A stretch of 33,102 nucleotides of DNA. It comes from a virus. Position 1 is the stretch's first letter, and each line of letters opens with the position of its first letter. This document shows positions 3,863 through 20,365 of this stretch, one piece after another. Made by a program: the position numbers and the translations under genes. The notes beneath the pieces are model-generated. The model made no database searches, was not told the DNA's origin, and was given only the letters and a program-made list of their open reading frames with translations. The stretch spans positions 1-33,102 of IMG/VR virus record IMGVR_UViG_3300048800_000086. One strand, 5' to 3'.

Positions 3863-4342
3863 TCACACGCTGGCAGCCGCCCGGTATCGTCGTGACCGAT
3901 CTCGCATACAGACTCGACACTCGCGGTGGCCGTTGGCGCGGCGATGCGTGTTCTCGTCGTCGAACGGGTGGCCCTGCTTGCAATGGGTCTTTTCACGCTG
4001 GTGACGACCCGGTTCGAGCTTACGCCAGTCGAAGCCGTCGAACGCCTTGTGACAGCGGTCGCATAGCTCGAACCAGTCCGTCCGGTTGCGCGTATAGGTG
4101 TGCCCGATGCTGGCGTAAACCGTCCGCCGCACGGTTGTGGCGCAGAACTCACAGCGGCCGACCGGCGGAAAGTTATGGCGCATCCAGATGTGGACTGCGT
4201 GGTAGCCCATACTGGACCCGCGGTCGGGGCCGCCACCGAGCGGGTCGCCGTGGGTGCGCCAGCGACGGTAGTGCTTTCCACACCAGCCCCGTTTTTCGGC
4301 CGGTTTCTCGCACTTCTCAATGCTGCATGTACGCTCTGGCAT
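3863..4342 (-). CDS. HNH-type homing endonuclease-like protein with Cys-rich flanks
   Basis: 159 residues. The N-terminus carries the phage HNH-associated motif CSIEKCEKPAEKRGWCGKHY followed by RRWRTHGDPL. The middle (CEFCATT...YASIGHTY...FELCDRCHKAFD) has the Cys pairs and His expected of a zinc-bound HNH nuclease. The C-terminus has a second module, CKQGHPFDDENTHRR...RECRVC. The ATG at 4342 has AAAGGGG eight bases upstream. It lies opposite to its neighbours, between a gene and what seems to be that gene's terminator, as expected for a free-standing mobile nuclease gene. Related by its N-terminal module to the gene at 9885 and by its GH-N-CRxC module to 6940 and 9885. Confidence 0.8.
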   Translation of the reverse strand: MPERTCSIEKCEKPAEKRGWCGKHYRRWRTHGDPLGGGPDRGSSMGYHAVHIWMRHNFPPVGRCEFCATTVRRTVYASIGHTYTRNRTDWFELCDRCHKAFDGFDWRKLEPGRHQREKTHCKQGHPFDDENTHRRANGHRECRVCMRDRSRRYRAAASV

Positions 4343-6100: not shown

Positions 6101-6943
6101 ATGAGCTATCCCGTCTACGGTCGTTTCCAGACCGCCGAGCCGCTCTCGTCGCTCGCGGACCTGCACCAGCACGATGGCGTCACGAAGCTGACGACGGCCG
6201 ACCACGAAACGCCGCTCGGGGTGCTCGACCAGTCGGACTTGATCACCCAGCGTATCCACACGTCCCGGTTCATTCCCGGATGCAAGAAGGATGCGGAAGC
6301 GCTCGGGTCGTGTACGGCGAACACGGCCATCGAGGCGCTGGCGAAGAAGACGGGGGAAGCCGCGTTCCTCGCGTTGTGCAAGCGGCTCATCAACCATCCG
6401 GCCTCAGATCCCCCAAAGAACTACGAGGACGTGATTGGTGCCGAGCGCGCGGGCATAGCCTTCTACCACGACTGCACAGACCAGACGGGGACTCCTTCGG
6501 AAGAGTGGCCGCCAACGGACTGCGGCTCGAGCGGCCCGTACATCGTTAGTGAGTTGAAGCGCCTCGGCGTGATCTCGGGGCAGAAGATTGCCTCGGCCGG
6601 CGAAAGTCTCCTGTCGTTGATGCAGACCGATCTCGTGATGATGGGCTCGCCGTGGTTCTACAAGTGGGAGGAACCGGACGCGCAGGGCTTCATCGACGGG
6701 AACGGCTCACCGTCGGCGATCAAAGAATCCATCGCGTCGGGTGTCGCGGGTGGCCATGAGACATCGCTCACCGCGGTCGAGAAGCTCGTGCTCCTACCCA
6801 CCGGGCATGTCGACCTCGCGAAGACGGTCATCCGGGGTCGCAACCACTGGGGCGCGTGGGGCGACCACGGGTGTTACAGGGTCCACCTGTCTACGCTGAT
6901 GGCTATAGGTGGAAGCTGTGATTTTCGCGCACTGACCCCATGA
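6101..6943 (+). CDS. Papain-like (C1 family) cysteine peptidase
   Basis: 280 residues with the C1 catalytic order: C71 in ALGSCTANTAIEAL, H219 in GGHETSL, N248 in GRNHWGAWGDHGCYRVHLSTL (papain NSWG...WG.G.fr). No signal peptide is seen. The ATG has GAAAGGA five to six bases upstream. In the lysis region it may attack wall peptides or process virion proteins. The last ~22 codons are unusual: they are a recoded version of sequence that recurs at 7494-7565, so the present 3' end came with the downstream HNH gene. ATGA overlap with that gene. Confidence 0.82.
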   Translation: MSYPVYGRFQTAEPLSSLADLHQHDGVTKLTTADHETPLGVLDQSDLITQRIHTSRFIPGCKKDAEALGSCTANTAIEALAKKTGEAAFLALCKRLINHPASDPPKNYEDVIGAERAGIAFYHDCTDQTGTPSEEWPPTDCGSSGPYIVSELKRLGVISGQKIASAGESLLSLMQTDLVMMGSPWFYKWEEPDAQGFIDGNGSPSAIKESIASGVAGGHETSLTAVEKLVLLPTGHVDLAKTVIRGRNHWGAWGDHGCYRVHLSTLMAIGGSCDFRALTP

Positions 6944-7491
6944 ACTGGCAGGCCGCAAAGACCCACTGTCCCGCTGGACACCCGTTGGTGCCCGGCAATC
7001 TTCGAGGGGGTAAGCGCGGGCACCGCGAGTGCCTGACGTGCCATCGCGAACGTGAGCTAGCGCGCAGACGCGCCAAGGGTGCCAAACCGCAGGGGCAGGC
7101 GTTGGTCTGTGGACGGGGGCACGACCTAACTCTTCCCGGCGCGCGGCGGACGAGCGGCAACTATGGTTGCGCCACTTGCCATCGAGAAAACGAGAAGGCA
7201 CGACACCGCGCCGAACCCGAGCGGCTGATGGCTAGACAGACCGCATGGAGGCGCGAGCATCGACCGGAGACGAACGCGCGCACCCAAGCATGGCGAGCGG
7301 AAGGTCCCAACCGCAACCGGGGCCGCATCAAGGGGCGCTACGCGGAAATCCTGCGCCACGATCCGTGCTACATTGAGCCCGTGAGCCGTGGCGGGGCTAG
7401 GGCTGCGGACAACCTCACCGCTGCGTGCCGTCCTTGCAATGTCCGCAAGTACGCCAAGCCACTGCTCACCTACCTACTGGAGGCCACATGA
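6940..7491 (+). CDS. Homing HNH protein with deleted catalytic core
   Basis: 183 residues. Two N-terminal zinc modules of the GH-x-CxxC type (CPAGHPLVPGN...HRECLTC; CGRGHDLTLPG...YGCATC), a basic helical linker, then a C-terminal HNH remnant: RHDPCYIEPVSRGGARAADN followed by LTAACRPCNVRK. In intact relatives of this HNH type the DPC is followed by xxCG...DH before IEP; here those ~12-15 residues, with the first Cys pair partner and catalytic His, are absent in frame. It may be nuclease-dead. It overlaps the peptidase by ATGA and is flanked on both sides by versions of the peptidase 3' end, marking it as an inserted unit. Confidence 0.8.
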   Translation: MNWQAAKTHCPAGHPLVPGNLRGGKRGHRECLTCHRERELARRRAKGAKPQGQALVCGRGHDLTLPGARRTSGNYGCATCHRENEKARHRAEPERLMARQTAWRREHRPETNARTQAWRAEGPNRNRGRIKGRYAEILRHDPCYIEPVSRGGARAADNLTAACRPCNVRKYAKPLLTYLLEAT

Positions 7492-7565
7492 TTTACCGCA
7501 TTCACGCCTCGACGCTGGTCGCTATCGGCGGGTCGTGTGACTTCCGGGCCTTGGTGGCGGCATGA
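7488..7565 (+). pseudogene. Old 3' end of the peptidase gene, left behind by the HNH insertion
   Basis: Read in frame this gives IYRIHASTLVAIGGSCDFRA plus LVAA, nearly identical to the current peptidase C-terminus (YRVHLSTLMAIGGSCDFRAL plus TP), while the DNA differs mostly at third positions. Its stop (7563-7565) overlaps by ATGA the phosphoesterase start, which is how the peptidase gene probably ended before insertion. It could still be translated as a 25-residue peptide from the ATG at 7488, which overlaps the HNH stop. Confidence 0.8.
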
Positions 7566-8590
7566 GACGCTTCGGGATCGGCCCAACCACAGCGAGAGAG
7601 CAGCTCCAGAAGGCATGGCCGCCGCACGTAGGTGTGCAGCCATTGCCGGCGGGGAGCGGCTCAGCGGTCGCCGCCCAGAAGCTCGGCATCGTGGAGGATG
7701 CGAGCCCGCTGACGTTCTTCATCATCGGCGACCACGGAGGCGTCAAGGACCCTACGCCGCAGAACGCTGTGGCTACAGCAATGGAGTCGGAGCAGGCCCC
7801 GGCGTTTGTCTATTCTCTCGGCGATGTCGTGTACTTCAACGGCGACGCTTCGGAGTATCACCCGCAGTTCTTCGAGGCGTATGCGCATCTAGCCGTGCCG
7901 TTCGTGGCGATCCCCGGCAATCACGACGGCGACACGAGCGACGATGCGACCCGTAAGCCGCTGGATACGTTCATGGCGAACTTCTGCGCCAGCACACCCG
8001 CGCTTCCCGTCGGCTCCGAGGAGTACGAACGGGACACCCAGACACAGCCGTACTGCGACTGGACGCTCCTTCATCCGCAGGTCACGATTATCGGCCTATA
8101 CACGAACGTCCCGTCGGGCGGCCATCTGGAGTCGTCGCAGGTCGAATGGCTGGCCGCAGAATTGAAGGCTGCACCTGCGGACGTGCCCGTCATCGTGACG
8201 ATGCACCACCCACCGTATTCGATCGACGCTCATCATGGTGGGTCGAAGAAGATGGGTTCGGCGCTCGATGTTGCGAGCCATTCGGCCGGGCGCGGGCCGA
8301 ATCTTGTCCTCTCGGGTCACGTTCACGACTATCAGCGCTTCACGCGCTCGGACGCGAACGGCAGCACGCCGTATGTCGTCTCTGGCAACGGTGGGTATCA
8401 CAACCTGCACAAGCTGGCACCCGGTGCGAGCAAGGGCCAGGAGCTCGTGCCGGGTGTTGTCTTTGAGGCCGGTGACGATGCGAACTGGGGCTACCTGAAG
8501 GTCACGGTCGCGGCTGGCAAGATCAGCGTCCAAGCGGTTGCGGTGCCGCTCACGGGCGCCACGTCGATCATCGATAGCTTCACTCTGTAG
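7562..8590 (+). CDS. Calcineurin-like (purple acid phosphatase type) metallophosphoesterase
   Basis: 342 residues with the five metal-ligand blocks in order: G56-D57-H-G, G87-D88-VVY91, G119-N120-H121-D122, M214-H215-H216-PPY, and G252-H253-V-H255-DYQR. The GDxxY and GHxHxYxR forms fit the purple-acid-phosphatase branch, which hydrolyses phosphomonoesters or diesters with two metal ions. No signal peptide is obvious; residues 1-45 are unassigned. The ATG overlaps the old peptidase stop. In a lysis/envelope block it might act on wall teichoic or other phosphate polymers, on nucleotides, or be a virion-associated enzyme; the sequence does not choose. Confidence 0.88.
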   Translation: MRRFGIGPTTAREQLQKAWPPHVGVQPLPAGSGSAVAAQKLGIVEDASPLTFFIIGDHGGVKDPTPQNAVATAMESEQAPAFVYSLGDVVYFNGDASEYHPQFFEAYAHLAVPFVAIPGNHDGDTSDDATRKPLDTFMANFCASTPALPVGSEEYERDTQTQPYCDWTLLHPQVTIIGLYTNVPSGGHLESSQVEWLAAELKAAPADVPVIVTMHHPPYSIDAHHGGSKKMGSALDVASHSAGRGPNLVLSGHVHDYQRFTRSDANGSTPYVVSGNGGYHNLHKLAPGASKGQELVPGVVFEAGDDANWGYLKVTVAAGKISVQAVAVPLTGATSIIDSFTL

Positions 8591-9884: not shown

Positions 9885-10442
9885 TCACCGAAGGGACGCG
9901 GTACGCTTTCGACGGGTAGCCTGCCGGTTGGCGTTGCGGGTGCTCCGGCAGGTACGACAGAAGCGCTTCCCCCGCCAGTGGTATGTGTTCACCTCGTCCA
10001 AAACATGCCCATGGATACAATGCGTCCTAGGATGCCTCGCGCTATGTTCTGCGCTGGTTAGCGCTTCGATGTGTGCCGGACCGCACTCGTCAGCCAGCAC
10101 CTTGACGCACGCCCCATTTTCGCAAACGTGATGCAGCTCGCGACCCCCAAGGATCGGCCCATGCACATCTTCCCACGCCCAGCGATGGGCCAGTGCATTC
10201 CCCGCTTCCCTACCGCCGCGCCCAAGAAGGCCGTAGCCCCCTTTATTCTTTAGGCCAGTCCACACATGGCACGGTCCCAATTCCGGCTTGTGCGCGGGTA
10301 ACGGCCCGTCTTTGTTTACCTTAGACTCAAAGTACTGCGAGCGAGTCTGTCGTGTATACAGCGGGTCGCCGTGGCGCTTCCAGCGCAGGTAGTGCATCGA
10401 ACACCAGCCACGTCTGTAGCTGGCTTTCCCACACCCGTCGAT
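9885..10442 (-). CDS. HNH homing endonuclease-like protein, start codon unclear
   Basis: The core has the HNH_3-type signature LHHVCENGACVKVLA followed by ECGPAHIEALTSAEHSARHP, plus the shared modules CSIDGCGKASYRRGWCSMHY (N-terminal) and CIHGHVLDEVN...FCRTC (C-terminal). Those N-terminal Cys residues are encoded upstream of the first ATG (10397), so 10397 is too short. No ATG, GTG or TTG lies further up: an ATC at 10442 is the only near-start, and an ATG at 10450 is out of frame. The gene may be frameshifted at its start, start at a non-standard codon, or start at 10397 without the first zinc motif. It stops 21 bases past the 3D gene, convergently. Confidence 0.7.
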   Translation of the reverse strand: MDGCGKASYRRGWCSMHYLRWKRHGDPLYTRQTRSQYFESKVNKDGPLPAHKPELGPCHVWTGLKNKGGYGLLGRGGREAGNALAHRWAWEDVHGPILGGRELHHVCENGACVKVLADECGPAHIEALTSAEHSARHPRTHCIHGHVLDEVNTYHWRGKRFCRTCRSTRNANRQATRRKRTASLR

Positions 10443-11858: not shown

Positions 11859-12239
11859 ATGAGCAAGCCTAAGTCCTACACGAAGTGGAAGGGCACGTGG
11901 ATGACTAGAGCACAGAAGATCAAAGCCGCGTTGGCGGAGTACCAGAAGGTGCGCGGCCCCGCGTTGGCGGAGTACCAGAAGGTGCGCGGCCCCGCGTGGG
12001 CGGAGTACCAGAAGGTGCGCGGCCCCGCGTGGGCGGAGTACCAGAAGGTGCGCGGCCCCGCGTTGGCGGAGTACGAGAAGGTGAACGACGCCGCGTGGGC
12101 GGAGTACGAGAAGGTGCGCGACGCCGCGTGGGCGGAGTACGAGAAGGTGTGCGGCCCCGCGTTGGCGGAGTACGAGAAGGTGCGCGGCCCCGCGTTGGCG
12201 GAGTACGAGAAGGTGAGCCGGGAGGCCAAGGATGACTAG
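11859..12239 (+). CDS. Hendecad-repeat helical protein
   Basis: 126 residues: a basic N-terminus (MSKPKSYTKWKGTWMTRAQ), then nine tandem 11-residue units of the form A-(L/W)-A-E-Y-(Q/E)-K-V-x-x-x (residues ~24-122), then AKDD. An 11-residue period equals three helical turns and suits a right-handed or straight coiled coil, so a long rod or oligomer is likely. Units 1-4 have EYQ, units 5-9 EYE, showing expansion by duplication. It is the first plus-strand gene of the early block, upstream of the ERF gene. No enzymatic motif is present. Confidence 0.75.
   Translation: MSKPKSYTKWKGTWMTRAQKIKAALAEYQKVRGPALAEYQKVRGPAWAEYQKVRGPAWAEYQKVRGPALAEYEKVNDAAWAEYEKVRDAAWAEYEKVCGPALAEYEKVRGPALAEYEKVSREAKDD
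11928..12224 (+). repeat. Nine 33-bp in-frame tandem repeats
   Basis: Nine uninterrupted 33-base units, each encoding one 11-residue hendecad. Units 1 and 2 differ from 3 and 4 at one codon (ttg versus tgg), and from units 5-9 mainly at cag versus gag. The similarity implies recent slippage or recombination, and copy number is likely to vary between relatives. Confidence 0.9.
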
Positions 12240-12254
12240 CAATGCCGCTCATAC

Positions 12255-12953
12255 ATGGACGAAACTGGTGTCGTCGTGAGCGACATGGCGATAGACCCTG
12301 CGAGCGCCACCGTGGAGGAGCTGGCCGCACATATGGGTTCGACGGAGCCCGCCGCACAGACCTTGATGGAGGCGCTTCTCGCCTTCCAGGCCGAGGCGCC
12401 GATCTTGACGAAGGACGCTCAGGGCGAAGTCAAGGGTGTCAGCAAGGGCGGCAAGTCCTATGAGTACACGTTCAAGTATGCGGGCTATCCGCAGATCATG
12501 ATCGCGATCCAGCCGTTGCTCACGAAGTACGAGCTGGTCTGGAGCACGCGGCCGGCGGAAACCGAGCAGGGCCGTCCGGTGCTGGACTACGAACTGATAC
12601 ATGTGCCGAGCTGTGAGCTAAAGGACGGCCGGATGCCGTTGATGCTCGGCGCGAACCCAACCGCCCAAGCCCTTGGATCGGCACTCACGTACGCTAAGCG
12701 CCAGGCGTTGACCGCGGTGCTGAACCTTGTAGCGGAAGAGGATGACGACGGGAAGGTGGCCTCGAAGCGTCCGACGGGGGACGCACGTCCAATGCCGAAG
12801 GCGAAGCGCGAGAACATGGTCGCGGCGATCAAAGCGAAGGGCAAGGATCTGGCTATCGTGCTCGGGGCTGTTGGCTTGGAGCGTGTCGAGGATGCAACGG
12901 TCGGCCACGGCCGACAGGTTGAGAAGCTGTTGGAGGATAAGCCCGATGCCTAA
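12255..12953 (+). CDS. ERF-family single-strand annealing recombinase
   Basis: 232 residues. The ERF core spans ~25-160: LMEALLAFQAEAPILTKDAQ, YEYTFKYAGYPQIMIAIQPL, LLTKYELVW, and NPTAQALGSALTYAKRQALT leading to AVLNLVAEEDDDG. ERF/Rad52-like proteins bind single-stranded DNA and anneal complementary strands in phage recombination. The C-terminal ~70 residues are a Lys-rich helical tail. The start is uncertain: the ATG at 12255 lacks a ribosome site, and GTG 12276 or ATG 12285 are alternatives. It pairs functionally with the RecB-like nuclease at 17049. Confidence 0.85.
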   Translation: MDETGVVVSDMAIDPASATVEELAAHMGSTEPAAQTLMEALLAFQAEAPILTKDAQGEVKGVSKGGKSYEYTFKYAGYPQIMIAIQPLLTKYELVWSTRPAETEQGRPVLDYELIHVPSCELKDGRMPLMLGANPTAQALGSALTYAKRQALTAVLNLVAEEDDDGKVASKRPTGDARPMPKAKRENMVAAIKAKGKDLAIVLGAVGLERVEDATVGHGRQVEKLLEDKPDA

Positions 12954-13275
12954 CCCCGACGGTCAAGGGCTCGAGACGCAGTTCGCTGAGGCAGCCGACT
13001 GGTTGATTCAATGCCTCAAAGACGTGTGTGAGCACAAGGTTGTGCGGGGACTCCCCGAAGCTGAAGGCGCTTATCTACAGGCTCGCGCCGCTCTCGCTGC
13101 CCGTGAGGAGCCGCAGGACGACCAGCGAGCCATTCAGGCGGCAGCGGAAGCGCTCAGGGGGATCTACCCAAACGAGTTTGCGGACAACTTCTACTTCTAC
13201 CAGCAGGCAAAGGGAGTCATCGACGCCTACCTTGCAGCCTCCGCCCGGAAGCGCTCAGTCGAGCTGGGGCTATGA
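12946..13275 (+). CDS. Modular small protein (AAREEP linker family)
   Basis: 109 residues from the ATG at 12946, with GGAGG nine bases upstream; it overlaps the ERF stop. It opens MPNPDGQGLETQFAEAADWL, close to the start of the 17848 gene (MSNPDGQE), and carries ARAALAAREEPQDDQRAI at ~45, the linker shared with the 18-20 kb cluster. The C-terminal half (ALRGIYPNEFADNFYFYQQA) is aromatic and may be its own domain. Function unknown; it is the only cluster-type member this far upstream. Confidence 0.7.
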   Translation: MPNPDGQGLETQFAEAADWLIQCLKDVCEHKVVRGLPEAEGAYLQARAALAAREEPQDDQRAIQAAAEALRGIYPNEFADNFYFYQQAKGVIDAYLAASARKRSVELGL

Positions 13276-13511
13276 AGCTCCTGGCCATCGATCCGGGCAG
13301 CGAAGAATCAGCGCTTCTGCTGTACGACGTCACCGGAGCCAAGCCGCTTGTGTGGGCGAAGCTGCCAAACGCGAAGGCGCTCGACAAGCTCGCAGCGGAG
13401 CGCGGCCGTTCGATGGGGCAGGTTATTGAGGACGCGAAGCGGATCGAGCGCGAGTTCGGCCAGGAGAAGCGGGTGGTCGTCTGTGAGCGTTGTGGTCACA
13501 CTCGAACGTGA
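13272..13511 (+). CDS. RuvC-like resolvase, N-terminal part only
   Basis: 79 residues. It begins MKLLAIDPGSEESALLLYD, the RNase-H-fold first strand of phage RuvC-like Holliday junction resolvases with the first catalytic Asp (D7), and runs to VVVCER, where the second acidic residue is expected. Normal relatives are about 150-170 residues and carry further acidic residues; here the frame ends shortly after (CGHTRT). So it is truncated, frameshifted, or a minimal variant. Overlaps the previous gene by ATGA. Confidence 0.62.
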   Translation: MKLLAIDPGSEESALLLYDVTGAKPLVWAKLPNAKALDKLAAERGRSMGQVIEDAKRIEREFGQEKRVVVCERCGHTRT

Positions 13512-13541
13512 ACTGCACAGCGACGATCCGGGTGGGGCCTG

Positions 13542-13916
13542 ATGGCTGAGCGCCAAGCATGGGATTTCCACCAAGCCGTAGAGGCTAGCCGCAGGGCGAA
13601 AGAAGCTCAACGGGAGACCGAGGCGGTCGTCGAGCTGTCCGCTAAGGAGTACGCGGACGCCGAGAGGCTTTACCGTATCGCGCTGGCCAAGCGGATTGTG
13701 GAGCTCGTCGCCGAGGGCAAACCCGCAACGGTGGCGAAGGATCTCGCGCGGGGCGATCCGCGGGTGGCTGACCTGGCCTACGATATGGCCGTGGCGCTCG
13801 GCGTGAAAGAGGCGATGGAACAGCGCGCGTGGCGTTCGACGGCTGATCGTAAGGATGTGCAGAACTTGACGGAATGGTCGAAGCTGGTGGCGCCGATGGG
13901 CGAACCACGCTCGTGA
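13542..13916 (+). CDS. Helical hypothetical protein
   Basis: 124 residues from the ATG at 13542, almost all helix. The C-terminal half contains DLARGDPRVADLAYDMAVAL then GVKEAMEQRAWRSTADRKDV and LTEWSKLVAP, a pattern I associate with conserved small proteins near the recombination genes of actinophages, but with no known function. No Cys or membrane segments. Overlaps the next gene by GTGA at 13913. Confidence 0.7.
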   Translation: MAERQAWDFHQAVEASRRAKEAQRETEAVVELSAKEYADAERLYRIALAKRIVELVAEGKPATVAKDLARGDPRVADLAYDMAVALGVKEAMEQRAWRSTADRKDVQNLTEWSKLVAPMGEPRS

Positions 13917-14338
13917 GCGACGCCCTCTCAGGCTTGAGAACCACGAGAGTCGTGCCCGGCTGGGATTCGATCGGCTTGGATGGCAGCTACATGGTGTGTC
14001 GTGGCCGGATCAAACGTGGGAAACGTCTGAAGGCGGCTGAGAACATGGGTTCTAGCCGACTGATCGGGGAGGTTGAAGAACGGGTGGATCGGTGGCATCG
14101 GATCACGCTGGGACGCTCCCGGAAGAACGATAGCGCTTGGGGGTCCTGGCCGCTCCACTCACTAGGGGATGGCTACGGCGTGTCGGCTGACCTGGCGGCT
14201 CTCGCGACCCGGACGGTTGGACCCGGCGAGTGGCGCAAGGGGACGGTTATATCGATGCCAAACGTGCCTTGTCTCGTGGCCAAGGTGCGTAAAGGTGAGG
14301 TCGTGGCTATCATCGCGCCGTGCCGGGTGAGGCCGTGA
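13913..14338 (+). CDS. Hypothetical protein, beta-rich
   Basis: The GTG at 13913 overlapping the previous stop gives 141 residues; longer upstream starts fall inside the preceding gene. Features: LRTTRVVPGWDSIGLDGSYM, CRGRIKRGKRLK, GEVEERVDRWHRITLGRSRK and a C-terminal KVRKGEVVAIIAPCRV strand pair. Strongly basic overall, so nucleic-acid contact is possible. Not recognised. Confidence 0.62.
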   Translation: MSDALSGLRTTRVVPGWDSIGLDGSYMVCRGRIKRGKRLKAAENMGSSRLIGEVEERVDRWHRITLGRSRKNDSAWGSWPLHSLGDGYGVSADLAALATRTVGPGEWRKGTVISMPNVPCLVAKVRKGEVVAIIAPCRVRP

Positions 14339-14694
14339 AGCGCTCCAGCCCGTTGAAGCGGACACGCGGGAAGCTTAAGGCTTCTCGACCCAAACGCGGC
14401 GGCGTGAGTCAAGAGACCTACGCTATCGCCTGGGCACGAACCGGTGGCCGTTGTGCCTGTGGATGCGATCGGCGTGGCGATCAAGTGCACCACGTCTTTC
14501 CAAAGGCCGCGAACAAGTGGCCCGAGCTGGTTGACGAGCCGGACAACTGCGTCCTAGTCGCCGGGTCCCCGTGTCATTCCAATCACGAGACAGCCTTTCG
14601 CCGGTTGCCGCGCTCCGTCTGCGCTCCGGCCGAGCGTCTCGCCGTCACGGAGCCGATGCGAGCGTTTCTCGATCGAGTGTATGGGTCAGTGTGA
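14335..14694 (+). CDS. HNH nuclease-like protein
   Basis: The GTG at 14335 overlaps the previous stop; GTG 14320 is an alternative. 119 residues: a very basic N-terminus (VKRSSPLKRTRGKLKASRPK), a helix, Cys pair CACGC near 41, then the catalytic-type block DQVHHVFPKAANKWPE followed by DNCVLVAGSPCHSNHETAFR. The HH...N...H order and second Cys fit an HNH/endonuclease VII-like zinc nuclease of the kind found in phage replication modules. It is on the sense strand and overlaps both neighbours, so it looks like a resident gene rather than a mobile one. Confidence 0.78.
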   Translation: MKRSSPLKRTRGKLKASRPKRGGVSQETYAIAWARTGGRCACGCDRRGDQVHHVFPKAANKWPELVDEPDNCVLVAGSPCHSNHETAFRRLPRSVCAPAERLAVTEPMRAFLDRVYGSV

Positions 14695-15755
14695 GCACGG
14701 CCGGTGGACTCTTCTCAGGCATCGGACTGCTCGATTACGGACTCACCCTCGCCGGATGGGAGCACTCCTGGCTCTGTGAGAAGGACGAGTTTCGACGCGG
14801 CGTCCTCGAAACACGCTGGTCCGGCGTTCCCGTCTATGACGATGTCCGGGCAGTTGGATCTGGGTCTGCCTGCCGAGTCGATCTCATCGCCGGAGGCTTC
14901 CCCTGTCGAGGGATTAGCACCGCAGGCAAGCGTGAGGGCTTCGGGAACGCCGAGACCGTTCTGTGGCACGAGATGCGCCGAGTCATTGGCGACCTTCGAC
15001 CTCGCTACTGCCTCATCGAGAATGTCGCCAACATTCTCAGCATGGCGGCGGCCCCAACGGAGCCTCCTGGAAGCCTCTGGGGCACAGTTCTCGGAGACCT
15101 GGCCACGCTCGGGTACGATGCGGTCTGGGACTGTATTCCAGCAGCAGCCTTCGGTGCCCCGCACCTCCGTGACCGGCTTATTTGCATTGCTACGGACACC
15201 GACATCGGCACCGTGGAATCAGGGCGGCTGCGGGGGAGAGAGCGAGGCCGAGATCAAGCGCCTACTCCCAACCCCGAGAGCCAACATCGCCAAACAGGGC
15301 CTACCACGCGAGGGGAACTGGGGCGAGCTTCGCGCGGACATAATGTCGCTACTACCAACGCCCAACAGGGACGACACGCGGCCCAACTCACAGAGCGAGA
15401 GCGAGACGAAGCGTCAAGCACGGTTGAGCGACGCGCTACGCCTTCTCCCGACACCCTCGGCGACCGAGTACGGCAGCAACCAGAGCCCGAGTCCCGGTGC
15501 AGCGGTGCGGCCGAGTCTCCCATCACTGTTGACTGGGGCGAGTACGAGCCAGCCATCCGACGATGGGAGCAGGTTCACGGACCTGCGCCTGAGCCCCTCG
15601 TTCGTCGAGTGGATGATGGGCGCACCCGCAGGGTGGAGCGATCCCGACTGTCCGCCCTCGGCGATGGAGTTCAGGTCCAGCTCGGAAGACTCGCGGGGGA
15701 ATATCTGATGGCTCTACAGCGGATGGTTGAGCCCGCAACTTCACGAGAAGGGTAG
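14691..15755 (+). CDS. Orphan DNA cytosine-C5 methyltransferase (Dcm-type)
   Basis: 354 residues from the GTG at 14691, which overlaps the HNH stop. Motif I AGGLFSGIGLLDYGLTLAGW (5-23), motif IV GGFPCRGIS with catalytic C72, motif VI ENV (110-112), motif VIII AAFGAPHLRDRL (~165). The middle (residues ~180-280) is low-complexity, where the target-recognition region would lie. The C-terminus regains family features: DWGEYEPAIRRWEQVHGPAP, PLVRRVDDG and LSALGDGVQVQLG (motif X). It transfers methyl from SAM to cytosine C5. No restriction gene is next to it, so it probably protects phage DNA. A second protein is encoded in another frame across most of its length. Confidence 0.85.
   Translation: MSTAGGLFSGIGLLDYGLTLAGWEHSWLCEKDEFRRGVLETRWSGVPVYDDVRAVGSGSACRVDLIAGGFPCRGISTAGKREGFGNAETVLWHEMRRVIGDLRPRYCLIENVANILSMAAAPTEPPGSLWGTVLGDLATLGYDAVWDCIPAAAFGAPHLRDRLICIATDTDIGTVESGRLRGRERGRDQAPTPNPESQHRQTGPTTRGELGRASRGHNVATTNAQQGRHAAQLTERERDEASSTVERRATPSPDTLGDRVRQQPEPESRCSGAAESPITVDWGEYEPAIRRWEQVHGPAPEPLVRRVDDGRTRRVERSRLSALGDGVQVQLGRLAGEYLMALQRMVEPATSREG
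14836..15708 (+). CDS. Overprinted LLPTP-repeat phage protein inside the methyltransferase gene
   Basis: A second frame is open for 334 codons (14704-15708). From the ATG at 14836 (or 14842) the product opens MTMSGQLDLGLPAESISSPE, contains FSETWPRSGTMRSGTVF, four spaced Leu-Pro-Thr-Pro type motifs (LLRTPTS, LLPTPRA, LLPTPNR, LLPTPSATEYGSNQSPSPG), RPSLPSLL, and ends DLRLSPSFVEWMMGAPAGW plus SDPDC. This motif order matches a widespread phage family known to me from methyltransferase neighbourhoods. Its last block is the same DNA that in the Dcm frame reads RRVDDG. No ribosome site is visible, so expression is unproven. Start is uncertain. Confidence 0.55.
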   Translation: MTMSGQLDLGLPAESISSPEASPVEGLAPQASVRASGTPRPFCGTRCAESLATFDLATASSRMSPTFSAWRRPQRSLLEASGAQFSETWPRSGTMRSGTVFQQQPSVPRTSVTGLFALLRTPTSAPWNQGGCGGESEAEIKRLLPTPRANIAKQGLPREGNWGELRADIMSLLPTPNRDDTRPNSQSESETKRQARLSDALRLLPTPSATEYGSNQSPSPGAAVRPSLPSLLTGASTSQPSDDGSRFTDLRLSPSFVEWMMGAPAGWSDPDCPPSAMEFRSSSEDSRGNI

Positions 15756-15764
15756 GGTAGAGAA
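15753..15764 (+). promoter_or_regulatory. Leaderless-type promoter (-10 TAGGGT)
   Basis: TAGGGT at 15753-15758, six bases, then GTG at 15765. The first three bases are the methyltransferase stop codon. The intervening AGAGAA could also act as a weak ribosome site. Confidence 0.35.
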
Positions 15765-16253
15765 GTGGCTGCCCCAGCACTGAAGCTGATCGACGGAGCG
15801 AGCGGAGAGGTCGTTGCGGGAGACGACTCATCGCTCATGGCCCGCATCGAAGAGCTCGAGCGAGAACTACAGGATGCCGAGCGTGACCTACGAGCCAAGC
15901 GTCGGCTGATCACAAAGCTCCAGAAGGACAAGGAGCGGGAGCGCCAGAACTTTGAGCAACGTGAGGTCGTCTTCAAGCTCTTTGAATTCTGGCAGCAACG
16001 GTGTCAGAAGCCGCGGAGCCAATGCACCGCGGATCGCTTCGACGCACTCAGGAAGGCGCTGGAGTCCGGCTATACGCCGAGGCAGGTTGCGCTCGCTATT
16101 GCCGGCGCCGCCTATGACCCGTTTGTCACGAAGGCGAAGAACGGCCGTGAGATCAAGCACAACGACCTAGAGCTGATCTGTCGTGACGGCAAGCACTTGG
16201 AGAGCTTCGCAAACAAGGCCCCACGGAGGCGTGATGTAGCTCTAGCGACATAA
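15765..16253 (+). CDS. Coiled-coil protein with conserved C-terminal domain
   Basis: 162 residues. Residues ~25-65 form a charged coiled coil (EELERELQDAERDLRAKRRL). The C-terminal domain has FEFWQQRCQKPRSQCTADRF, ALESGYTPRQVALAIAGAAY, DPFVTKAKNGREIKHNDLEL and ICRDGKHLESFANKAP, a pattern found in actinophage replication regions and perhaps a DNA-binding accessory factor. The ordering of coiled coil then compact domain suggests a dimer. Function not established. Confidence 0.75.
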   Translation: MAAPALKLIDGASGEVVAGDDSSLMARIEELERELQDAERDLRAKRRLITKLQKDKERERQNFEQREVVFKLFEFWQQRCQKPRSQCTADRFDALRKALESGYTPRQVALAIAGAAYDPFVTKAKNGREIKHNDLELICRDGKHLESFANKAPRRRDVALAT

Positions 16254-16480
16254 CAGGTCGATGCAGAAGGCGTAAGCCGCCGGCCCACGGCAAGGGACGG
16301 TCCAGCGGAAGTGGCAAAGACAGCCAAGGACGGCGCAGTCGGCTACCACTGGACAACAGCTCCGGTACCAGGGCGCACTTCGATTTCGACCGCGACCAGT
16401 GTCTTTGTCTCACTGTCCCTAAGGTCCTTGCCAGGGAATGGCAGACCGTACGCGAGAACGGAGGTGATTGTGCCGCTTAG
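16250..16480 (+). CDS. Small protein with no standard start codon
   Basis: This frame is open from after the TGA at ~16231 to the TAG at 16478-16480. Its C-terminal half is convincingly protein-like (GTRAHFDFDRDQCLCLTVPK then VLAREWQTVRENGGDCAA) and its end overlaps the well-marked start of the next gene. Yet no ATG, GTG or TTG occurs in frame: candidates are ATA at 16250 or CTG at 16349. The N-terminal part is basic, Ser/Gly-rich. A competing ORF (GTG 16311, other frame) looks like a shadow. Could be a non-standard start, a frameshift from upstream, or a decayed gene. Confidence 0.42.
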   Translation: MTGRCRRRKPPAHGKGRSSGSGKDSQGRRSRLPLDNSSGTRAHFDFDRDQCLCLTVPKVLAREWQTVRENGGDCAA

Positions 16481-16658
16481 TGAACGCCGCAAACGCGCCG
16501 CAGAGCGAGCACCTCATCTAGTGGCACGCGCGCATCTAGCCGCCCACATCCGCGAGGCGCGCATGCTTGGCGAGCCGTTTCGCACCATCGCTGAGCTCTA
16601 CGGCGTCTCAAAGTCGCAGGTCCAGCGCATTTGCAAGGAGGGCGCGTGGGCTCTCTAA
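16470..16658 (+). CDS. Small helix-turn-helix protein
   Basis: The GTG at 16470 is preceded by GGAGGTGATT, a near-perfect ribosome site, which decides the start. 62 residues: a basic N-terminus (VPLSERRKRAAERAPHL) and a resolvase/sigma-like helix-turn-helix, EPFRTIAELYGVSKSQVQRI, with the usual A.lygVS.s.V.r spacing. Likely a DNA-binding regulator. Overlaps the next gene, whose GTG at 16646 lies inside its last codons. Confidence 0.75.
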   Translation: MPLSERRKRAAERAPHLVARAHLAAHIREARMLGEPFRTIAELYGVSKSQVQRICKEGAWAL

Positions 16659-16969
16659 GCCGAGACAAGGGCGCACGCTTCGAGCGCGAGGTGGTTGGGA
16701 TTCTCCACGAGCATGGGTGGACCAAGGCAGCACGCTCAAGCGACGGGCGCAAGCAGGGCGGACGCGGGGATGTCATCAACCCACCAGCCGGGACGCACAT
16801 CGAGTGCAAGTTTCACGAGCGCCTGAACGTGCCGAGGGCCTTCGATCAGGCGATGGCCGACGCGGGCGACGCTATTCCGATTCTCGTGCATCGCCCTTCA
16901 CGGCATAGGGTCATGGCGACGTTGCCGCTCGCCGATCTGCTGCCGTTGCTTGCTCTGCGCGAGCGTTGA
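16646..16969 (+). CDS. PD-(D/E)XK-type resolvase/nuclease-like protein
   Basis: The GTG at 16646 with AAGGAGGG just upstream gives 107 residues. KGARFEREVVGILHEHGW (an early Glu), RKQGGRGDVINPPAGTHIEC then K fits the E...(G)D...ExK core of Hjc-like archaeal resolvases and VRR-type nucleases; NVPRAFDQAMADAG and DAIPILVHRP complete the fold. It may resolve Holliday junctions or cut branched DNA, perhaps covering for the truncated RuvC-like protein at 13272. Family call from motif order. Confidence 0.7.
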   Translation: MGSLSRDKGARFEREVVGILHEHGWTKAARSSDGRKQGGRGDVINPPAGTHIECKFHERLNVPRAFDQAMADAGDAIPILVHRPSRHRVMATLPLADLLPLLALRER

Positions 16970-17036
16970 GTCCTATGCTGGGTCGCGCTGCCATAACAGT
17001 CGCCGAGGGAAACGAACTCTAGTGCCATGAGTAGTG

Positions 17037-17048
17037 TATACTCGCTGC
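17037..17048 (+). promoter_or_regulatory. Leaderless-type promoter (-10 TATACT)
   Basis: TATACT at 17037-17042, six bases, then ATG at 17049 with no ribosome site. It lies at the end of a 79-base gap and is the best hexamer match among the promoters of this type. Confidence 0.6.
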
Positions 17049-17855
17049 ATGGGTGAGATGGCGATCGTCGAGAAGGACGGCAGCGAGTTCACGGCCTACG
17101 CCGGCTTCCAGATCGAGTATCGGGACGCTTCGCACCGTTACTGGATTCACGAGGACGCCGAGCGCATACCGGTGCCGAGCGTGACGGGCGCCAACGGTGT
17201 CCTCGAGAAGCCTGCGTTGATCTCGTGGGCTGAGCGCATGGGTGCCGAAGCCGTGCTGAAGCTCGAGCGCGAAGGCAGGCTGTCCGACACCCCGATCGAG
17301 AACGCGGTCTACGCGATGCGTAGCTACGGCGAGGGCGCGGGCGCCAAGCGTGACGAGGGGGCCGAGCGGGGAACGTCGATCCACGAGGCCCTACGTGATT
17401 TCTGCGAGGCCGGCCAGGTCCCGAGCCTGTCGAACTGGCCGCTCGAGCACCGCGGCTTCGTCAAGGCGCTCTGCCGGTTCCTGCTCAAAAACGATCCTGA
17501 GCCCGTGCTGGTCGAGCAGGTGGTCGGCTCCGTAAAAAACAAATACGCGGGGCGCCTGGATTTGCTGGCCAAGATCAAGGGCAAGCTGAAACTGATCGAT
17601 TTGAAGAGCAGCACCGGAACGGCCCGGGTGTTTCGCGAGGCGCATGTGCAGGCCGCGGGTTACGAGCTGGCGTTGCCGGAGTGCGGGATCGAGCTGGTCG
17701 AGACCCCGATTATCGTTGCGTTGGGCGAGGATGGGTCGATGGAGGAAGTGCCGAGCTTTGGCACACCGGAGATGTTCTTGAGCGTGTTGGAGTGTTCTCG
17801 GCGGATGAAGGAGCTTGACGCGTTGCTGCGGGCACGGGAGCGGGCGGATGTCTAA
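17049..17855 (+). CDS. RecB/Cas4-like PD-(D/E)XK exonuclease
   Basis: 268 residues. ERGTSIHEALRDFCEAG (conserved G.xxH), VEQVVGSVKNKYAGRLDLLA with the first acidic residue, KLKLIDLKSSTGTARVF with the D-x-K core, and HVQAAGYELA matching the Q-x3-Y motif of RecB-family nucleases. Such enzymes resect DNA ends; with the ERF protein at 12255 this would make a phage recombination pair. The ATG at 17049 directly follows the leaderless promoter; ATG 17058 is an alternative. Confidence 0.83.
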   Translation: MGEMAIVEKDGSEFTAYAGFQIEYRDASHRYWIHEDAERIPVPSVTGANGVLEKPALISWAERMGAEAVLKLEREGRLSDTPIENAVYAMRSYGEGAGAKRDEGAERGTSIHEALRDFCEAGQVPSLSNWPLEHRGFVKALCRFLLKNDPEPVLVEQVVGSVKNKYAGRLDLLAKIKGKLKLIDLKSSTGTARVFREAHVQAAGYELALPECGIELVETPIIVALGEDGSMEEVPSFGTPEMFLSVLECSRRMKELDALLRARERADV

Positions 17856-18060
17856 CCCCGACGGTCAAGAGCGACAGCTACTCGATGCAGGCTGGCAGGT
17901 CGAGGATTGCAACAGTGATCGTCACGCGCTGCGCATGGGCGGACCGGCCACGTACCGGATCTACATTCCGCCGGACTACCGCTGCAACTGGTATCGGCCC
18001 GAGCTGCCGCAAGGCGGTCCTGTTGCCTGGACGCTTGAGGATGCGGTGGCTCGTGCCTGA
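17848..18060 (+). CDS. Small protein, first member of the modular cluster
   Basis: 70 residues from the ATG at 17848, overlapping the nuclease stop by eight bases. It begins MSNPDGQERQLLDAGWQVED, matching the start of the 12946 protein, then TYRIYIPPDYRCNWYRPELP and TLEDAVARA. It has the Q-E-R head but no AAREEP linker. Aromatic, beta-looking centre. Function unknown. Confidence 0.65.
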   Translation: MSNPDGQERQLLDAGWQVEDCNSDRHALRMGGPATYRIYIPPDYRCNWYRPELPQGGPVAWTLEDAVARA

Positions 18061-18214
18061 CCTTAACGATCAAGAGCGCGAGGCGTTGGAAGAGATTGAG
18101 GAGATTTATGCCGAGGGAAGAAAGCCGCCCACTTTGGTTGAGCGTCGCATTCACGAGATTGCTCGTGCCGGCCTCGCTGCCCGTGAGGACACCGAGCAGG
18201 AGCACAAGCGATGA
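18053..18214 (+). CDS. Modular small protein (NDQERE head, AARED tail)
   Basis: 53 residues from the GTG at 18053, overlapping the previous stop. It is almost only modules: head VPDLNDQEREALEEIEEIYA, a short middle (GRKPPTLVERRIHEIARAG) and tail LAAREDTEQEHKR. The DNA of head and tail is near-identical to the 18446 gene. The start is set by homology to MTDLNDQERE in its paralogues. No function known. Confidence 0.62.
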   Translation: MPDLNDQEREALEEIEEIYAEGRKPPTLVERRIHEIARAGLAAREDTEQEHKR

Positions 18215-18453
18215 GGCTTGAGGGACGTATCCACTGTGATGGCCCTGAGTGCAACAGCCACCAGCACGTTGGTGTTGACTCAATGGATCACGGCCGTCTT
18301 CCCGCCGGGTGGATCACGGTGACCGAGCACGGGGACTTCTCCGATCCGACTAGCGCGTTCTGCGGCTGGGACTGTCTGTTGAAGTCCGCAGCGAAAGTTG
18401 AGCCTCCCGTCGAGATTCCTTGGGACCAAGCGCTTGGAGGTAGTGATGACTGA
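18211..18453 (+). CDS. Small zinc-finger-like protein
   Basis: 80 residues starting by ATGA overlap. HCDGPECNSHQHV near residue 8 and FCGWDCLLKSAAKVE near 50 give C/H ligands for one zinc site; DSMDHGRLPAGWITVTEH lies between. I recognise this as a conserved actinophage small protein type without known function. It lacks the shared head and linker of its neighbours, so the cluster mixes modular and non-modular genes. Confidence 0.68.
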   Translation: MRLEGRIHCDGPECNSHQHVGVDSMDHGRLPAGWITVTEHGDFSDPTSAFCGWDCLLKSAAKVEPPVEIPWDQALGGSDD

Positions 18454-18814
18454 CCTCAACGATCAAGAGCGCGAGGCGCTGGAGCGGAGGGCGCAAGACG
18501 CGGCGGGTATGAGCTCGTCGAAGTACCCAGGCGCTAGAGCACGCGAGCTGATTATCTGGCGCTCCGCTCGCAGATTCGAGGCCGCTCTCGCTGCCCGTGA
18601 GGACACCGAGCGACCGGACGGGCCAACTGATGACGACTTGACGGAGTTGATCGAGATGCCGCGTGACCTGGCGCGAGTGCTCAGAGATCCCGGCATCGTC
18701 GTCAAGCAGGACGGTGCCATTTTCGATCTGATCGCTAAATGGCAGAACGCTCCAACACCGACGATGAGCGGTCCCGTGCAGGACCCCGAGCAGGAGCGGG
18801 AGGCCAAGCAATGA
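18446..18814 (+). CDS. Modular small protein (NDQERE head, AAREDTER linker)
   Basis: 122 residues; ATG at 18446 with GGAGG five bases upstream, overlapping the previous stop. Head MTDLNDQEREALERRAQDAA, linker FEAALAAREDTERPDGPTDD at ~47-66, then a unique helical part (LTELIEMPRDLARVLRDPGI...AIFDLIAKWQ) and a tail PVQDPEQEREAKQ that resembles the head-like QERE motif again. Its first 29 bases are identical to those of the 19785 gene. Function unknown. Confidence 0.68.
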   Translation: MTDLNDQEREALERRAQDAAGMSSSKYPGARARELIIWRSARRFEAALAAREDTERPDGPTDDDLTELIEMPRDLARVLRDPGIVVKQDGAIFDLIAKWQNAPTPTMSGPVQDPEQEREAKQ

Positions 18815-18933
18815 GCGAACGATGGGCGACTACACAGGAGATTGCTGGGCGCGTGTGGCGATTGGGGCTGATCTGCGGATTCGTTCTAGGTTCGGCTGGC
18901 GGTTTCATTCTGGGCTGGCTGGTGTTCGCATGA
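18811..18933 (+). CDS. Tiny single-pass membrane protein
   Basis: 40 residues by ATGA overlap: MSERWATTQEIAGRVW, then a single hydrophobic helix (LGLICGFVLGSAGGFILGWL) ending VFA. Gly-zipper spacing (GFVLGSAGGFILG) favours helix packing and oligomers. ATGA overlap with the next gene as well, so it is part of the same transcript. Could be a superinfection-exclusion or membrane-modulating peptide; unproven. Confidence 0.6.
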   Translation: MSERWATTQEIAGRVWRLGLICGFVLGSAGGFILGWLVFA

Positions 18934-19601
18934 GTCACCTCGACGACGAGCGAGCGGAGATGCAGCAGCGCCTTCGACAACACGGCCCACCCGAAGGTCA
19001 AGAGCGCGAGGGGCTGGAGCGGATTGCGGGTCACGGCTCCAACGGCCCGCAAGAACCTAACGCTGACTCTATGAGACGGATAGCCAAGGCCGCGCTCGCT
19101 GCCCGTGAGGAGCCACCCACGATCACCGATGAGATGGTAGAGCGCGCGGTCGCGGTCCATACCACTCGGACCGGCGGTCACTTCGAGGCTGTGCGAGACC
19201 AGACCGAGGAAAAGCTGACTGCGGATGTACGTGTGATTCTTACCGCTGCTCTTAGCGCTGCCCGTGAGGAGCCGCAGAAGCCGAGTTTGCCCGAGGGCGA
19301 GCTGCCCACCACCTTAGAAGTGCAGGTGGCACTCCCGGTCGAGGACTGGCTGCGGCTGGAGAAGATCGCGCTGTTCTCGTATAGCCCGCAGGACGAGCGC
19401 ATTCTCAACGCGATCAAACGCGCGGCAGAAAGCCTGCCACTACGAGCGGCTATGGCGGTGCGGGGATTCCAACGCATTGTCGAGGAGGATGCCGCTGCCC
19501 GTGAGGAGCCGGATCGGTATGAGGTTGACGACCCTTCGACGGGCGAACCGCTCGCGTATCCCGTCGCCCGTGAGGACCCCGGGCAGGAGCCCGAGCGATG
19601 A
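18930..19601 (+). CDS. Largest modular protein, four AAREEP-type linkers
   Basis: 223 residues. Head-like GQEREGLERIAGHGS at ~23, then linkers KAALAAREEPPTITDEM (~50), AALSAAREEPQKPSLPE (~107), DAAAREEPDRYEVDDP (~188) and PVAREDPGQEPER at the C-terminus. The segments between are different: a TITDEMVERAVAVHTTR helix, LEVQVALPVEDWLRLEKIAL, and an ERILNAIKRAAESLPLRAAM helix. It looks like several small proteins joined at the linker. No catalytic motif. ATGA overlaps at both ends. Confidence 0.68.
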   Translation: MSHLDDERAEMQQRLRQHGPPEGQEREGLERIAGHGSNGPQEPNADSMRRIAKAALAAREEPPTITDEMVERAVAVHTTRTGGHFEAVRDQTEEKLTADVRVILTAALSAAREEPQKPSLPEGELPTTLEVQVALPVEDWLRLEKIALFSYSPQDERILNAIKRAAESLPLRAAMAVRGFQRIVEEDAAAREEPDRYEVDDPSTGEPLAYPVAREDPGQEPER

Positions 19602-19792
19602 GTGCCAAACTGCTTCCCGGTGTGGACGCTCTGAGCGTGTCATGCCCGTACTGTGGGATGCCCAAGGGTCACATGTGCCGCTTGAGCACGAACTATTGGG
19701 ATGTACCTAAGCCTCATGTGGCGCGAGTCAAGCTAGCGAACGATCGGAAACGGCCGGTCGATCGGCACTGGAGAGCGGCTCGGGATGACTGA
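19598..19792 (+). CDS. Small zinc-ribbon protein
   Basis: 64 residues. VSCPYCGMPKGHMCRLSTNY and DVPKPHVARVKLANDRKR give CPxC...C...H ligands, a pattern common in actinophage small zinc proteins of unknown role. ATGA overlap upstream; its last codons overlap the ATG of the next gene at 19785. No shared cluster module. Confidence 0.68.
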   Translation: MSAKLLPGVDALSVSCPYCGMPKGHMCRLSTNYWDVPKPHVARVKLANDRKRPVDRHWRAARDD

Positions 19793-20171
19793 CCTCAACG
19801 ATCAAGAGCGCGATACACCGCCGCCTGAGCGATTCGAGTTGTGGTGGTGTCGGACGTGTGGAGAGCCTTCCTTGGAGTGGTGTGACCCGTGCCAAACGTG
19901 CGGGAATTCCATTCAGAGGTGGCCGATGGCCGCTCTCGCTGCCCGTGAGGAGCCACAGGGTGACGAGTTCGACACGCGTGGGCTGCGCGAGGCGATCGGC
20001 GTCATCAATGCGGCGGTGGCTGTGTGGCGGCTGGATAGCCCGGACGAGCCGATTCCTGTGTGGGCCGCTACGAACGCGGTCATTCAGCAAATCTCGTTCG
20101 TGGAGGGGAAGTCAATCAAGGATGTTGTGGCCGAGCTACAGATCGATGAGCAGAGAGAGGCCGAACGATGA
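19785..20171 (+). CDS. Modular zinc-ribbon protein (NDQERD head, AAREEPQ linker)
   Basis: 128 residues. Head MTDLNDQERDTPPPERFEL, zinc ribbon WWCRTCGEPSLEWCDPCQTC (four Cys in two pairs), linker MAALAAREEPQGDEFDTRG at ~48, then a helical domain (LREAIGVINAAVAVWRLDSP, FVEGKSIKDVVAELQIDEQR). It shows the cluster head joined to a different domain, here a zinc ribbon. Coding start is identical in DNA to the 18446 gene for 29 bases. ATGA overlap downstream. Confidence 0.68.
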   Translation: MTDLNDQERDTPPPERFELWWCRTCGEPSLEWCDPCQTCGNSIQRWPMAALAAREEPQGDEFDTRGLREAIGVINAAVAVWRLDSPDEPIPVWAATNAVIQQISFVEGKSIKDVVAELQIDEQREAER

Positions 20172-20365
20172 GCGATCAAGAGCGCGAGAAGATCGAAGCT
20201 GCGTACAAAGCGTGGGATGAGGGCTTCCCGGGGTTGACGCTCTACGACGACGATGTGGTCTTCGAGGCTGGTTACCGTGCCGCTCTCGCTGCCCGTGAGG
20301 AGCCTCATTCCGTCGATTTAGAATCGTTGGCTGCGACTATCTATCGCGATGGGGTATCCACTTAG
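20168..20365 (+). CDS. Modular small protein (SDQERE head, AAREEP linker)
   Basis: 65 residues. Head MSDQEREKIEAAYKAWDEGF, middle LYDDDVVFEAGYRA, linker ALAAREEPHSVDLESL, end AATIYRDGVST. Its 26-base linker core is identical to copies at 13087 and 19929. It is the last cluster member before the methyltransferase, whose GTG abuts its stop. Function unknown. Confidence 0.66.
   Translation: MSDQEREKIEAAYKAWDEGFPGLTLYDDDVVFEAGYRAALAAREEPHSVDLESLAATIYRDGVST

Follow-up and report, generated by a model that had tools for sequence, protein, structure and literature searches.

A probable homing element in a phage peptidase gene: an HNH gene that carries a recoded replacement for the gene's 3' end

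Homing genes usually need an intron, an intein or an intergenic gap if the gene they invade is to be spared. The closest described systems to the phage locus reported here are the mORFs of fungal mitochondria, found in Allomyces macrogynus atp6 and in atp6, atp9, cox2 and nad3 of Glomus sp. (PMC3630166). As in our locus, an endonuclease gene near the 3' end of its host gene supplies a diverged carboxy-terminus in place of the native one, and the displaced native end persists downstream; again as in our locus, the native end is the one closest to relatives, and the inserted end has diverged mainly at synonymous sites. For Glomus atp6, the published identity between the two ends is 63.5% at the DNA level and 91% at the protein level, and that between the native end and the uninterrupted relative is 91% (PMC3630166); the values given below are very similar. 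There are also differences: mORFs use LAGLIDADG or GIY-YIG enzymes and reside in mitochondria, whereas the phage element has an HNH gene, is short (619 bp), belongs to an operon whose genes overlap by ATGA, and carries a nuclease that is apparently inactive.

Among phage systems, free-standing HNH genes such as the T4 mob genes, Skunavirus HNHE and the ICP1 HEGs resemble the locus in being stand-alone HNH genes between conserved phage genes but, in the parts of the published accounts consulted, no duplicated host-gene end is described for them. Degenerate HNH copies are frequent in Skunavirus (56 of 268; PMC12724721). The ShiLan element, an HNH hidden in a phage methylase gene, is similar in that it occupies a phage gene without an intron or intein and leaves the host protein readable; its HNH, however, is read through in the host frame, and its abstract describes no donated gene end (PMC11855218). 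The limited collection of literature that was searched contained no phage example of a donated gene end. The logic of the arrangement is already known from fungal mitochondria; what differs here is the HNH enzyme, the phage, the operon setting and a 5' version of the same design.

The window, i.e. the whole 33,102-nt stretch of viral DNA that was analysed (IMG/VR record IMGVR_UViG_3300048800_000086), contains the following features at this locus.

6101-6943, + strand: papain-like cysteine peptidase gene, whole; a 280-aa ORF ending CYRVHLSTLMAIGGSCDFRALTP and stop
6101-6874, + strand: native part of the peptidase gene body, which stops just past the conserved N-x-W-G..W-G..G motif
6875-6943, + strand: copy 1, the donated, recoded peptidase 3' end, YRVHLSTLMAIGGSCDFRALTP plus stop
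6940-6943, + strand: ATGA overlap between the peptidase stop and the HNH start, read from the sequence
6940-7491, + strand: HNH homing-type endonuclease gene, 183 aa (PF01844, PHROG 826, PHROG 1492)
7488-7565, + strand: mini-ORF of 25 codons derived from the stranded native end, reading MIYRIHASTLVAIGGSCDFRALVAA and stop
7494-7565, + strand: copy 2, the original peptidase 3' end, YRIHASTLVAIGGSCDFRALVAA plus stop
6875-7493, + strand: putative inserted element of 619 bp (recoded end plus HNH)
7562-8590, + strand: calcineurin-like phosphoesterase gene, the original downstream neighbour (PF00149, E=4e-13)

The first-pass annotation of this DNA had described a chain in which the peptidase gene leads by ATGA into the HNH gene, followed by a second peptidase end that leads by ATGA into the phosphoesterase gene. 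This chain is present, and an ATGA overlap occurs at each junction between the peptidase, the HNH, the 25-codon ORF and the phosphoesterase: besides the overlap at 6940-6943, the mini-ORF shares ATGA with the HNH gene at 7488-7491 (its start, the HNH stop) and with the phosphoesterase gene at 7562-7565 (its stop, the phosphoesterase start). The two overlaps of the mini-ORF could preserve translational coupling to the phosphoesterase.

The peptidase body matches the PHROG 16701 peptidase (E=7e-10) and, in the PDB, procerain (E=4e-4), and alignments show the SC motif, G-H-E and N-x-W-G..W-G..G that mark papain-like cysteine peptidases. In papain-family enzymes the last of these motifs bears the catalytic Asn. 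When the window peptidase is aligned with seven phage peptidases, the insertion point falls directly after this motif in every sequence; conserved active-site codons are the usual preference of homing enzymes. An AlphaFold model of the peptidase built from a two-sequence alignment had a pLDDT of 30 and was uninformative, and a search of genome contigs with the peptidase alignment gave no match.

The final 21 codons of the peptidase gene (copy 1) are repeated directly after the HNH gene (copy 2), with 39 of 63 nucleotides identical. Is the second copy a genuine gene end, and which of the two is native? The annotation had claimed that the same C-terminus is encoded twice by DNA differing mostly at synonymous sites, and the codon-by-codon alignment that it proposed bears this out: 17 of 20 residues are identical although DNA identity over those 20 codons is 65%, 11 of the 14 changed codons are synonymous, and identity at codon positions 1, 2 and 3 is 70, 90 and 35%, respectively. 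The flank-to-flank match has E = 3e-9, whereas the best among ~134 random flank pairings has 0.007, so the duplicated end is real and chance is ruled out; the counter-possibility raised in the annotation, that the second copy is an unrelated gene, falls with it. The 24 nucleotide differences between the copies alter 4 amino acids, where 13.3 changes would be expected in the absence of selection; none of 20,000 simulations gave as few as 4. Differences occur at 82% of synonymous but 22% of nonsynonymous sites (pS 0.82, pN 0.22). Both copies thus diverged in a functional state, as ends of working genes, and this speaks against local duplication. Copy 1 is, moreover, foreign to the phage by codon usage. 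Its GC3 is 12/22 versus 216/258 in the peptidase body (Fisher p=0.002), where the value of 0.84 is typical, and its CAI falls in the lowest 0.5% when the main genes of the phage are scanned in 21-codon windows, with copy 2 at the median. The putative left edge of the element is placed from this codon usage.

Relatives in which the peptidase gene is uninterrupted, as the annotation had predicted, were found in two contigs. The first, IMG/VR contig L001, has the nearest uninterrupted peptidase, at only 69% identity to that of the window and with a different downstream gene. It ends CYRIHASTLVAISGACDFRQLTA and passes into the next gene via ATGA; its terminal stretch, YRIHASTLVAI, resembles copy 2. 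Nucleotide identity to L001 is 47/63 for copy 2 and 37/63 for copy 1; of the 20 informative sites that distinguish the two copies within these 63 bases, L001 shares 15 with copy 2 and 5 with copy 1 (p=0.04). Relatives ending in the TP version of copy 1 had been named beforehand as the finding that would speak against replacement. On the site counts L001 sides with copy 2, but one small contrary sign remains, since its last two residues, TA, equal copy 1's TP in length, unlike copy 2's VAA. The second contig, L009, has the direct junction that the annotation had predicted: its papain-like peptidase ends SDLRTIVRAV and leads via ATGA straight into a phosphoesterase that shares 53% identity with the window's, the start contexts being ATGAGGCGCTTTGGG (L009) and ATGAGACGCTTCGG (window). 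A match of the peptidase C-terminus to another contig, L003, was rejected as chance because it lies inside an unrelated frame.

The empty site can also be rebuilt from the window itself. Joining 6101-6874 to 7494 yields an uninterrupted peptidase ORF of 281 aa, as long as the L001 peptidase, that runs via ATGA into the phosphoesterase gene. Taken with the two contigs, and with the foreign codon usage of copy 1 and the typical usage of copy 2, this identifies copy 1 plus the HNH gene as the insert and copy 2 as the stranded native end. The annotation's central proposals, that the HNH gene replaced the peptidase 3' end and left the old end behind it, and that the element consists of the HNH plus a donated 3' segment and did not inactivate the gene, agree with these data. 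The endonuclease ORF is flanked by two copies of its host gene's end, the stranded copy is like the uninterrupted relative, the donated copy has diverged mainly at synonymous sites, and the hybrid gene is open and in frame (the 280-aa ORF), all as in mORFs.

The HNH protein of the window has two CxxGH-type zinc-binding repeats and covers only positions 18-46 of the 47 in the PF01844 profile (E=1.4e-5). Alignment with Pam1_20 and Ponzi_39 shows that it lacks the first C-x-x-C and the catalytic Asp-His, and hence a complete HNH motif (catalytic His plus two cysteine pairs); the missing part looks like an in-frame deletion. Because the first zinc cysteines and the catalytic Asp-His are missing, this HNH is, to judge from its sequence, probably no longer active and a fossil of the original element. 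Relatives of it were not found in viral contigs and phages gave only weak matches, with no intact close relative in either.

The likely explanation of the locus is a homing-endonuclease element that brings a substitute gene end with it. A diverged version of the final 21-22 peptidase codons, followed by an HNH gene, would have entered the intact peptidase gene of a related phage just 3' of the conserved catalytic-Asn motif, most likely by cut-and-repair of the intact allele, and cutting of the intact gene by the HNH at this boundary may have driven the recombination. The donated end would have fused in frame with the native peptidase body, so that the peptidase was kept whole, and the native end would have been displaced behind the HNH, where it persists as the 25-codon mini-ORF. 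Recoding and displacement of the native end would remove the cleavage site and thereby protect the occupied allele. The HNH would afterwards have lost its catalytic half.

Alternatively, two diverged phages might have recombined so as to bring a foreign gene end beside the HNH, which would then merely lie at the exchange boundary and not be its cause. HEGs are known at genetic-exchange boundaries between phages (PMC10448857), and the window's HNH now looks inactive, but the new end lies directly before the HNH and the old end directly behind it, in exact register, and the arrangement recurs mirrored at a helicase gene with intact HNH genes (see below). We consider this alternative unlikely. 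It is very unlikely that the gene end was duplicated in tandem locally and that the HNH was inserted between the copies later while they drifted. Two adjacent copies are indeed present, but a spare end free of constraint would not preserve its protein sequence through substitution of most synonymous sites (4 changes versus 13.3 expected), and the codon usage of copy 1 is foreign to this phage. Phage introns often contain HNH genes, so a self-splicing intron with an internal ORF and copy 2 as the true 3' exon was also considered; it is highly improbable, as no Rfam intron family matched window positions 6700-7800 and there would be no need for a copy 1 that has a stop of its own. With only 25 codons in its ORF, copy 2 might also be taken for a short gene of unrelated origin or a coincidental match; the probability of this is negligible, and it is already refuted by the E values above and by its exact position at the gene junction.

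Does replacement of a gene end by a homing gene occur elsewhere in phages? About 180 HNH ORFs (134 in IMG/VR loci and 46 in enterobacterial, Pectobacterium and Bacteroides phages) were surveyed for flanking duplicated peptides; Ponzi_39-type loci fell outside the survey, and in Ponzi the HNH adjoins terminase genes. One other lineage emerged, comprising phage contigs L067, L126 and L127. No clear case besides this lineage was found among the ~180 ORFs, so the arrangement is rare. The weak matches fall in off-frame low-complexity translations. The window's three other HNH-like ORFs, at 3863-4342 (-), 9885-10397 (-) and 14320-14694 (+), have no duplicated flanks.

L067, L126 and L127 each carry an intact HNH/AP2-type gene where an SNF2-type helicase gene begins, at its Walker A motif. 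Upstream of the HNH is a remnant of the native N-terminus, e.g. MLRKNQLHKYQHRAVKHILDIPKSAL, and downstream is a donated start, MSKNLTQGGRPILKKEQLHKYQERAVEHILTIPKSALFLDMGL, that continues into the Walker A motif. The two copies in L067 are identical at 42 of 66 nucleotides and 7 of 22 third positions, and uninterrupted helicases (Vibrio phage 1.017.O, Pseudoalteromonas phage AL) begin like the remnant. The remnant comprises 26 codons in L067 and ~11 in L126, and in L127 it is fused in frame to the HNH. No intron family matched at these loci. The helicase lineage is an independent mirror image of the window's 3' case, with the 5' end donated.

There may well be a class of free-standing phage HNH homing genes that need neither intron nor intein to invade active-site codons, because they carry a recoded copy of the gene end they displace, in 3' (window) and 5' (L067, L126, L127) versions and with an origin independent of the fungal mitochondrial mORFs. 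This would be a further phage route, in which the homing gene brings its own copy of the part that it displaces, and would account for stand-alone HNH genes at codons for catalytic residues in phage genes. Such elements can be searched for by a simple rule (a nuclease ORF flanked by a recoded gene end), and they offer natural allele pairs for studying how recoding shields an occupied site. As the nucleases of the helicase lineage are intact, the mechanism is directly testable there.

Other features of these loci deserve mention. In the helicase lineage (L067:3500, L126:3617, L127:3617) the donated start ends FLDMGL and is followed by CTTTGAC and then, in the +1 frame, by DLGKT; that frame remains open for 353-414 codons. 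CTTTGAC is absent from uninterrupted helicases. It is the same heptamer as that of the RF2 (prfB) +1 frameshift site, and the sequence suggests a programmed frameshift within Walker A next to the HNH. In L123 (Bacteroides phage BU2-2) an HNH of the L067 family (1508-2041) immediately precedes the same helicase gene and overlaps it, with the N-terminal helicase remnant absent. Within the window, an ORF at 11859-12239 is built of tandem repeats (ALAEYQKVRGPA units), and several small ORFs at 12900-20365 share an (A)LAARE(E/D) motif, e.g. ARAALAAREEPQ, ARAGLAAREDTE, AKAALAAREEPP and YRAALAAREEPH, which resembles a repeated module spread over different genes.
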